A program made the translations under genes and the position numbers. DNA of 38,773 nt from Desulfobulbaceae bacterium (GTDB taxonomy: Bacteria; Desulfobacterota; Desulfobulbia; Desulfobulbales; Desulfocapsaceae): NCBI GenBank assembly GCA_011391225.1, contig JAABQY010000005.1:1-38773 (forward strand), in the 5' to 3' direction. Positions within the stretch are counted from its first letter, which is position 1, and each line of letters opens with the position of its first letter. Positions 10,941 through 36,105 of this stretch are shown here, piece after piece. The notes under the pieces were generated by a model that was given only the letters and a program-made list of their open reading frames with translations, made no database searches and was not told where the DNA came from.

Positions 10941-11909
10941 ATGATCCCGGCTCATTGCAAGATTACTCTCCATGCCCCGGCAAAAATCAACTTGTTTCTC
11001 CATGTCATCGGTCGACGTTGCGACGGCTACCATGATTTGGAGACATGGATGCAGAAATTGCAGTTGTATGACACCCTCTCCCTGGAAATTCTCCCCGAAG
11101 ACAGGAAGATAGAGTTTTTTTGCTCAGACCCTAACGTTCCGGCAGATGGAAGCAATCTTGCTGTACGAGCGGCAGGTGTCTTTTTTGCCGCCAGCCGGAA
11201 GGGCGCAGGATACGGGGTGAGAATTTATCTTGAAAAAAAAATACCGATAGCGGCCGGCCTTGGCGGTGGGAGCAGCGATGCCGGCACAGTTCTTCGCGGG
11301 TTGAATACCATCTTTGAACAAGAGTTTCGTGAACAAGATTTGATTGAAATTGCACGTCCCTTGGGTGCGGATGTGCCTTTTTTTGCTGTGGGCCATGATG
11401 CCGTTGTTGCTCGGGGTATTGGCGATATAATGTATCCTGTCCATTCGATTGACGATTGTTCATTCGTTTTGGTCAATCCCGATATTTATGTCTCAACTGC
11501 TTGGGTTTTTCAAAATTTAACATTGACAAGGCGAACGAAAAACTCTAAATTGTCATGCTTTCAAAAGCACAAAACTGTTTCTCCGTTGCTGGCTGAGATG
11601 CATAACGACCTTGAACAGGTAACGTGCGCAAGGCATCCTGAAATCGAGCGTATAAAAAGTTCTCTTCTAGCGGCGGGTGCATCGAGGGTATTGATGTCCG
11701 GGAGTGGGCCGACGGTTTTCGGGATTTTTCCCGACTCAAATTTGTCATATAGTTTTGATTTTGCACGTATTGTGGGCGGATTACGTCAGGAATACGGCGA
11801 AAAAGTATACTTATTAAGGGCTTGCACTGGGGCGTCGCCAAGCGGTAAGGCACCGGGTTTTGATCCCGGCATCCGTAGGTTCGAATCCTTCCGCCCCAGC
11901 CACTGCTAA
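10941..11909 (+). CDS. ispE: 4-diphosphocytidyl-2-C-methyl-D-erythritol kinase; reading frame runs through tRNA-Gln
   Basis: GHMP kinase: APAKINLFLHVIGRRCDGYHDLETW, PIAAGLGGGSSDAGTVLRGLN, LMSGSGPTVFGIF. C-terminal ~25 residues are a translation of tRNA-Gln. Confidence 0.95.
   Translation: MIPAHCKITLHAPAKINLFLHVIGRRCDGYHDLETWMQKLQLYDTLSLEILPEDRKIEFFCSDPNVPADGSNLAVRAAGVFFAASRKGAGYGVRIYLEKKIPIAAGLGGGSSDAGTVLRGLNTIFEQEFREQDLIEIARPLGADVPFFAVGHDAVVARGIGDIMYPVHSIDDCSFVLVNPDIYVSTAWVFQNLTLTRRTKNSKLSCFQKHKTVSPLLAEMHNDLEQVTCARHPEIERIKSSLLAAGASRVLMSGSGPTVFGIFPDSNLSYSFDFARIVGGLRQEYGEKVYLLRACTGASPSGKAPGFDPGIRRFESFRPSHC
11828..11902 (+). tRNA. tRNA-Gln (anticodon TTG), CCA encoded
   Basis: TGGGGCG-TC-GCC-AAGCGGTAA-GGC-A-CCGGG-TTTTGAT-CCCGG-CATCC-GTAGG-TTCGAAT-CCTTC-CGCCCCA-G-CCA folds as a cloverleaf with anticodon TTG. 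One T·T mismatch in the T-stem. Confidence 0.95.
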
Positions 11910-23154: not shown

Positions 23155-24864
23155 TCAATTATTGGGGCAGGGGAGGGTGATTGTAAAGATTGCTCCGCCA
23201 TTCTCGCCACAGTTTACGTCGATTACACCTTGATGCTCGATTATAGTTTGTTTCACTATCGCTAAACCAAGTCCGGTTCCTTCCGGTCGTGTCGTGAAAA
23301 ACGGTTCAAAAATCTGCTCTCTTTTATTCTCCGCAATGCCCGGTCCGTTATCTTCGATCGAAATTTCAATTGCTTCCTGAAAATCCTTGTTTTTTATCTC
23401 ACGTGCCTGGATGGTAATGCGTTCTTTGCCGGGAGGGCAAAAAGCCAAGCCATTGAGGATGAGATGGGTGAAAACCGTAAACATCTCCTTTTCATCGGCC
23501 CAGATGTCAACTGTGCGGTTAAAATTGCAGAATATCTGCGCCGACTCCGGCCAGGCCGGATCTGCCTTGCAGACTTGCAGAACTTCCTCAATGCAGCCAC
23601 GTAGCGAAAACCAATTGCAATTGGCGATCTCCGGTCGCGAAAATCGCAAAAAATCCCCAATAGTTTCAGTGAGGCGGCTGGATTCCCTGAGGATGATGGT
23701 GGTCAATTGAAAATTGCTGTAATTCTCGGAGCCTCCAGATGAGAATTCGTTGGCAAGTACTTGGGCTGATCCCGAAATTGCCGTCAGGGGGTTGCGAAAA
23801 TCATGGGCGATACTGGCACTCATCATGCCGATGGCGGCGAGTTTTTCATTCTGTCGCAATTGGCGCTCCAGTTTCTCAATTTCACTTATATCTTTTAAGG
23901 TGATAATTTTGTGAGGAGGCTCCTGGGAAGACCGTTCGGTTTCTGAATGTTGAATATTTATATGGGAATAACCGATTCGTACTCTACTGCCGTCGTTTTT
24001 GAGAAAATCACTGGTCAACCGGTTGTTGTCTCCAGAAAGATCGAAACTGGGAAAAGCTGTTTGCAGTTTTTGGCCAATGAGGTTAGCAGGTGGTAAGCCG
24101 GTTATCTTCTCGATGGCATTATTGGCTGAGGTAATAAGTGTATTGGCATCGATGGTAATGATGCCGGTGGATATATTGTCGAAAATTTGTTTGTAGAGAA
24201 TCGCCAGCCGGTCAAAATTCTTAATGGAATCAGTGAGAGCGTTTTCAGTTTTTTGGAGACGTAAACCAAAGAGGGCGCTGAGAATCGCGGCAAGAAAGAA
24301 GGTCAGTCCCTGGACGGAAAAATGGTTAAAGATGACCATCGGATTGGGTGATGCTTCCCACAGATACTCGCGCAGGTATTCTGGGTAGAGGCCGTATGCT
24401 TCGAGAAAGAGAACGGTTCCGTACAGGAGTGTTGCCGATGCAGCGGCTACAAGGCCGCCTTTGCGTGGGAGCAGAAGACCGCCGGCGACAATGGGGAAAA
24501 AGAAGACCGAGGTAAAAATTGACCGAGAAGAGCCGGAAAAAAAAACCAGCAACGCTACAAAAAAGGTATCGAGGAGATTTTGTAGGAAACCGAATTTGCG
24601 GAGGTTGCCGTCATAAATCAGGAGAAAAAAAGCCGAAAGTATAGTTGTTAGAAAGACGAGAAGGAGCAAAAGGATAAGCAAATTAGGTGGCAGAACGATT
24701 ACATCATACTGGGCACTGCGGAAAAAATAACTGATAGCCAGGAGCAGTGTATAAAGAACTATACGCAGCGCCATCATCCACAGCAGCTGATTTCTGAGAA
24801 TCTGGTTGATGCTGAAAGCATTTCTGGCACGGCCGATGAGGGTGGAAAGATCCATGTGATTCAA
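23155..24864 (-). CDS. Sensor histidine kinase (PAS, PilS/NtrB-like)
   Basis: N-terminal multi-TM region, PAS-like region, ASIAHDFRNPLTAISGSAQVL H-box, EDNGPGIAENKREQIFEPFFTTRPEGTGLGLAIVKQ. Confidence 0.93.
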   Translation of the reverse strand: MNHMDLSTLIGRARNAFSINQILRNQLLWMMALRIVLYTLLLAISYFFRSAQYDVIVLPPNLLILLLLLVFLTTILSAFFLLIYDGNLRKFGFLQNLLDTFFVALLVFFSGSSRSIFTSVFFFPIVAGGLLLPRKGGLVAAASATLLYGTVLFLEAYGLYPEYLREYLWEASPNPMVIFNHFSVQGLTFFLAAILSALFGLRLQKTENALTDSIKNFDRLAILYKQIFDNISTGIITIDANTLITSANNAIEKITGLPPANLIGQKLQTAFPSFDLSGDNNRLTSDFLKNDGSRVRIGYSHINIQHSETERSSQEPPHKIITLKDISEIEKLERQLRQNEKLAAIGMMSASIAHDFRNPLTAISGSAQVLANEFSSGGSENYSNFQLTTIILRESSRLTETIGDFLRFSRPEIANCNWFSLRGCIEEVLQVCKADPAWPESAQIFCNFNRTVDIWADEKEMFTVFTHLILNGLAFCPPGKERITIQAREIKNKDFQEAIEISIEDNGPGIAENKREQIFEPFFTTRPEGTGLGLAIVKQTIIEHQGVIDVNCGENGGAIFTITLPCPNN

Positions 24865-35314: not shown

Positions 35315-36105
35315 ATGAATCCGCAAGAAGGTAGTGGAAAATTAGAGAAACAGGCTCTCACCGAACATTTGCGGGAGCTGCGTTCGTGTCTCATTGTCTC
35401 GTTTGTGGCCGCCTTCATAGGGTTTTGTCTTTCTTATTCGGTCATTCAGCCGATTGGAACCTGGTTTTTCAAACCCCTTGTCGAGGTTCTGCCGCAAGGT
35501 ACTTCCCTTATTTTCACCTCATACCAGGAGGGGTTTTTTTTTATCTAAAGCTTGCCTTGGTTTGTGGAGTACTGTTAGCGTCCCCAGTGATTTTTTCGCA
35601 GATCTGGCGCTTTGTTGCCCCTGGACTCTACGGCCATGAGAAGAAAGTTCTGGTGCCGTTTTCCCTGCTTTCCTCCTGCTGCTTTATCGGTGGGGCGGCA
35701 TTTGGATATTTTGTCGTCTTTCCACCCGCCTTTAAATTTTTGGTCGGTTATAATAACGAATTTCTTACTTCCCTGCCGGCAGTAAGCGAATATTTTGACT
35801 TGGCAACCAGATTGCTTTTGGCCTTCGGGGTGATCTTTGAAATGCCGGTTTTTATGGTCTTTATCGCCAAGGCCGGATTGATTGATGTTGCCTTTCTCAA
35901 TCGTCACAGAAAATATGCCATTCTCGTAAATTTCATTGCTGCTGCTATTCTTACTCCCACCCCGGATGTTGTCAATCAATTGATGATGGCGATACCTCTC
36001 ATTGTGCTTTATGAGATCAGTGTTGTTGCAGTTTGGCTTTTTGCCGGAAAAGGCTTCACTGGTTTCACCAAATCACCGCCTGACAGTGAAAAGATAACGG
36101 AATAA
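35315..36105 (+). pseudogene. tatC: Sec-independent translocase TatC, interrupted by an apparent frameshift at a T9 run; may still be expressed
   Basis: Frame A (35315..35548) encodes LTEHLRELRSCLIVSF...LPQGTSLIFTSYQEGFFF. Frame B, in the 35386..36105 ORF, continues YLKLALVCGVLLASPVIFSQIWRFVAPGLYGHEKKVL...LTPTPDVVNQ. The switch falls at T9 (35534..35542). Confidence 0.9.

Follow-up and report, generated by a model that had tools for sequence, protein, structure and literature searches.

Several bacterial genes are known in which a homopolymer joins two reading frames, including Thermus dnaX (A9), Citrobacter rodentium tssM1 (A11), and the transposases of IS elements; one gene is expected to give both a short and a full-length product, in these cases as in the tatC gene described here. 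Shigella mxiE is a poly-T gene with programmed transcriptional realignment. Beyond prfB, dnaX, and mobile elements, few bacterial household genes are known to undergo conserved recoding. Runs of more than eight T are known slippage sites (PMC3711429, PMC4256274, PMC1088944) and fall in the known range for transcriptional realignment (PMC3711429), and both slippage-made forms of Citrobacter tssM1 have been shown to be needed (PMC4256274). The 2013 GeneTack survey covered 1106 genomes and required at least five members per cluster; its magnesium chelatase and two-ORF dnaX clusters resemble the split tatC in that a household gene changes to the -1 frame at a conserved homopolymer site and has fused homologs elsewhere (PMC3711429). 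Few Desulfobulbales were probably included among these genomes.

In the window (the whole 38,773-nucleotide stretch of a Desulfobulbaceae contig analyzed here), tatC is divided between two frames at a T9 tract (Table 1). The 0 frame (frame A) encodes the N-terminal cytoplasmic segment, the first transmembrane helix, and the first periplasmic loop (TIGR00945 positions 1-58). The -1 frame (frame B) begins YLKLALVCGV... from the last T of the tract and encodes transmembrane helices 2-6, with the HEKK, FEMP, and LTPTPDV motifs. The junction reads GGGG-T9-ATCTAA, with the 0-frame TAA three bases past the tract. Scored separately against the TIGR00945 tatC model, the halves reach 30.5 and 170.7 bits, and the joined 263-aa product reaches 211.6 bits, above the family cut-off of 132.7; it also aligns co-linearly with the Aquifex TatC structure 4b4a, ungapped over the junction (E = 9.7e-45, query residues 14-240). 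With its frames joined, the split gene is thus a complete TatC. A first-pass annotation of the sequence had placed the frame switch of tatC (35315-36105) on this tract and held that the TatC sequence is regained once the frames join; the position proved exact, and the family score and structural alignment bear out the second claim.

Table 1. Coordinates of the split tatC gene and of other features of the window
Feature	Position	Strand	Description
tatC frame A (0 frame)	35315..35548	+	77 aa; ATG 35315, TAA 35546-35548; ends ...SYQEGFFFI*
Gly codon GGG	35531..35533	+	directly 5' of tract; synonymous selection in split genes
T9 tract	35534..35542	+	TTT TTT TTT in frame A; contains heptamer T_TTT_TTT
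tatC frame B (-1 frame)	35542..36105	+	187 aa; stop 36103-36105
0-frame stop TAA	35546..35548	+	directly 3' of tract; overlaps frame-B Leu-Lys codons CTA AAG
Frame-B codon 4	35551..35553	+	Leu
Sensor-kinase-like gene	23155..24864		
In-frame T9 of sensor-kinase-like gene	24537..24545	-	
ispE-like ORF	10941..11909		
In-frame A9 of ispE-like ORF	11233..11241		
tRNA-Gln gene	11828..11902		overlaps 3' end of ispE-like ORF

In a TatC family search of 57 relatives, nearly every genome had one copy interrupted at a shared profile position. Inspection of tatC in these sister genomes, suggested in the first-pass annotation, recovered T9 in the same frame relation, with the frame-B continuation and the immediate 0-frame stop, in all 51 split copies fetched, one of which has the tract displaced by one base. 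Among 258 genomes of Desulfobulbales, an order of sulfur-metabolizing bacteria, 210 matched the site in a pattern search (one or two of these matches may be due to chance), as did 132 of 149 high-quality genomes and 63 of 69 genera. In a sample of the phylum, 16 of 395 genomes matched, every one inside Desulfobulbales; the pattern was not found outside the order among these 395 genomes, which included order members, nor in viral contigs. A scan of named genomes located the site in Desulfobulbus, Desulfopila, Desulforhopalus, Desulfofustis, Desulfocapsa, Desulfogranum, Desulfurivibrio, and the cable bacterium Electrothrix, and in the complete chromosome of Desulfosediminicola flagellatus. All 48 order genomes that lacked the pattern were checked, yielding four further split variants (genomes G040, G484, G634, and G635) and ten in-frame orthologs; no complete copy of the split paralog was found in the remainder of the 48, which are often incomplete assemblies. 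The 143 distinct split sequences represent isolates, one finished chromosome, and numerous metagenome-assembled genomes (MAGs). The off-frame T9 in tatC is fixed across the order, and the conservation of the tract and its frame relation over the whole order places the feature far beyond chance.

The source genome is a 304-contig draft (completeness 84.7%) and homopolymers are error-prone, so that an indel introduced in sequencing or assembly, or a pseudogene, had to be considered. However, more than 200 genomes share the identical off-frame T9, among them isolates and one complete chromosome, which excludes the assembly indel offered as one option in the first-pass annotation. A pseudogene is contradicted by dN/dS, which stays well below 1 on either side of the junction in 15 pairs (for two pairs, dS was usable in a single half), and by selection on the 0-frame stop and on the codons beside the tract. 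Both tatC halves are under strong purifying selection, in line with the original impression that there is no sign of more extensive decay, and an artifact or a decaying gene is a vanishingly improbable explanation.

The first-pass annotation had also reasoned that an intact second tatC, with this copy unexpressed, would count against a recoded gene. An intact copy is present on contig 83 of the source genome and formally answers part of that condition, but it is a different paralog that co-occurs with the split one in most relatives and so does not render it dispensable. Finished relatives typically encode three TatC copies, namely, one adjoining tatB, one lower-scoring, and one split. The split gene is an orphan third TatC paralog of Desulfobulbales: it lies away from tatA and tatB, which the canonical copy adjoins in complete genomes, and often stands 5' of genes for a class II aldolase-like protein and an epimerase. 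This neighborhood, with no tatA/tatB linkage, gave no indication of function. Two members of the same family within the order (L229 and L230, from genomes G453 and G047) have a single divergent TatC only, and one MAG (Kiruna2 bin-2539) contains two T9 split copies (L151 and L212), by either duplication or mixed binning.

An unbroken run of at least nine T is present in all 143 distinct split orthologs: 139 carry T9, three carry T10, and one carries a T9 displaced by one base. The extra T of the T10 copies comes from the Gly codon, GGT, and these copies are still off-frame. The three Phe codons at the tract are TTT throughout in all 142 undisplaced copies; given that TTT makes up only 65% of Phe codons elsewhere in split tatC genes, drift cannot account for this uniformity. 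The displaced copy (L041/L023, genome G040) reads GCT TTT TTT TTA ACC TGA, is off-frame with nine T, and has Asn in place of Tyr; it keeps T9 by encoding Ala as GCT, which makes up 16% of Ala codons. All ten in-frame orthologs retain FFFYLKLAL or FFFNLKLAL, and in each of them at least one TTC breaks the T run; one (L222) retains T_TTT_TTC with a run of T8 only. When the split and in-frame states were mapped onto a tree inferred after masking of the FFF codons, five changes were obtained, of which at least four are forced by well-supported branches, and the in-frame orthologs belong to at least four to five independent lineages. Because the tract is interrupted in every in-frame copy, the off-frame state is associated with an intact run, and restoration of a single frame with its interruption. 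These patterns bear on whether the gene is a phase-variable contingency locus, with the T tract switched by replication slippage (T9 off, T10 on), in favor of which stands a homopolymer lying inside the reading frame of a gene for a membrane protein. Phase variation predicts a mixture of lengths between genomes, whereas the in-frame copies are always interrupted and no split or in-frame copy examined has an unbroken tract in frame; lacking any frame-restoring length variation in these copies, phase variation was rejected as very improbable.

The sensor-kinase-like gene of the same window contains an in-frame T9, a useful internal control for slippage; this control tract is absent from all 33 homologs found. 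The ispE-like ORF has an in-frame A9 and at its 3' end runs through the tRNA-Gln gene, so that the C-terminal tail of its product is translated tRNA sequence; its true stop or a 3' change deserves attention.

A 0-frame stop directly follows the tract in 142 of the 143 distinct split sequences; in the sole exception, a T10 copy (L233, genome G484), the 0 frame runs on (TLN...). The stop arises from a frame-B Leu codon that is CTA or CTG in 141 of 142 copies, whereas these two codons make up 42% of Leu codons elsewhere; CTA by itself accounts for 54% at this position vs 2% elsewhere. In codon tests that take no account of shared ancestry (synonymous divergence is already about one or more than one substitution per site within the source genus), the same codon is CTR in 6 of 10 in-frame orthologs (Fisher p = 5e-5 vs split genes), and GGG encodes the Gly 5' of the tract in 101 of 116 split genes vs 0 of 7 in-frame genes (p = 2e-6). 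The immediate 0-frame stop is itself under selection, which suggests that many messages are unshifted and cleanly terminated. Synonymous constraint reaches little beyond the tract and the codons directly beside it. At frame-B codon 4, CTG is avoided order-wide, and CTC, TTA, and CTT dominate. A selected third-frame stop close to the tract, for U8 products, was not found, the stop lying mostly 32-34 codons on.

Given that both frames are conserved and selected, the two halves could conceivably be translated separately and assemble as a split TatC. However, frame B has no conserved ATG, GTG, or TTG: the position of the first such codon varies from copy to copy, and none occurs within 40 codons in 21 of 142 sequences. 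Furthermore, codons are conserved right up to the junction, and related lineages encode one chain. Independent initiation of frame B was therefore rejected for want of a conserved start codon, and assembly from separately made halves is hardly credible. With such a start unlikely, recoding is left, and the full-length product of the split TatC almost certainly requires programmed recoding at the conserved T9. Of the three readings advanced in the first-pass annotation (RNA polymerase slippage, -1 frameshifting, and an assembly indel), recoding is thus strongly supported, leaning to RNA polymerase slippage, and only the indel drops out.

The recoding is probably programmed transcriptional realignment. 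RNA polymerase would slip on the nine-base A template, adding one U in a share of the transcripts; U9 messages would yield a 77-residue one-helix fragment, with an immediate stop, and U10 messages would yield full-length TatC. The features expected of such a gene are present, namely, a slippable homopolymer at the junction and off-frame conservation with purifying selection on both frames. In a -1 ribosomal frameshift, tRNA-Phe pairs would instead shift by one base toward the 5' end on U_UUU_UUU, and the U9 message itself would yield full-length TatC; non-slipping ribosomes would stop two codons later. The required in-phase X_XXY_YYZ heptamer is there, as a perfect T_TTT_TTT in essentially all split copies; the heptamer of the displaced copy, T_TTT_TTA, is likewise a strong slippery site, and an SD-like AGGAGG or AGGAAG precedes the tract in many copies. 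Conserved stimulators, an SD-like element or downstream structure, were in contrast not detected, although stimulators of -1 frameshifting are common rather than obligatory. The SD-like element is missing from several copies, and its pairing energy is no stronger than in synonymously randomized codons (-7.6 vs -7.3 kcal/mol), so that Shine-Dalgarno stimulation was rejected as within synonymous expectation. No stimulatory RNA structure was found up- or downstream of the tract across the split orthologs: downstream structure is not conserved, and a hairpin or terminator-like stem before U9 (CCTC...GAGG), plausible by eye, showed no meaningful excess stability or consensus fold.

The length of the tract does not separate the two mechanisms, because the T_TTT_TTT heptamer and the conserved Phe/Tyr codons also yield T9, and the GGG preference 5' of the tract is accounted for by neither. 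The points for transcription are few, and they favor it moderately. With no structure, no SD selection, and constraint that mostly stops at the tract and flanks, no ribosomal stimulator is visible, and the paucity of conservation besides the tract fits polymerase slippage, which needs the tract alone. The displaced copy, a single sequence, retained nine T although T8 suffices for ribosomal slippage on T_TTT_TTA, which would not need GCT; the in-frame L222, again a single sequence, keeps T_TTT_TTC and yet has only T8. Finally, T runs over eight are in the range described for bacterial transcriptional realignment (PMC3711429). Taken together, these observations make -1 frameshifting the main rival, a plausible but less likely mechanism. 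Sequence comparison is the basis on which we infer slippage in transcription rather than translation, how efficient it would be, and what the short product may do.

Under transcriptional realignment, full-length TatC would be made at a set fraction, with the 77-residue form (first helix and cap loop) as the rest. Several lineages, those with in-frame orthologs, do without the short form. We suggest only tentatively, as a doubtful possibility, that both products are used, slippage fixing the ratio of the one-helix fragment (TM1 and cap loop) to full-length TatC. If so, Desulfobulbales, including cable bacteria, would possess a specialized Tat translocase with its stoichiometry tuned by RNA polymerase slippage. 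In any case, slippage by Desulfobacterota RNA polymerase can be tested on this natural tract, and the recoded tatC with its natural in-frame revertants constitutes a comparative system for addressing why cells keep an off-frame gene. Annotation pipelines can be expected to label the split TatC as a pseudogene or two fragments. Order-wide fixation, the selected 0-frame stop, and revertants that always break the T tract extend what could be read from the single sequence.

As a case of programmed recoding at a homopolymer, the order-wide tatC has apparently gone unreported. Neither TatC nor Desulf- is mentioned in the main text of the GeneTack paper (PMC3711429), as distinct from its supplements, and tatC is not named in the accessible part of a 2016 recoding review; no report of a recoded tatC was found in the open literature, as distinct from supplements and subscription papers, and a prior database listing is possible. 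Like canonical TatC (TIGR00945, PF00902; Aquifex 4b4a), the protein is full length and has the HLRELR, HEKK, FEMP, and PDV motifs; unlike canonical tatC, its gene occupies two frames and does not adjoin tatA/tatB. The split tatC differs from the described realignment genes in encoding a core export translocase and in having a site fixed across an order, with slippage deduced here from sequence, and it further stands apart in the selected 0-frame stop adjacent to the tract and in the repeated natural in-frame revertants that break it.
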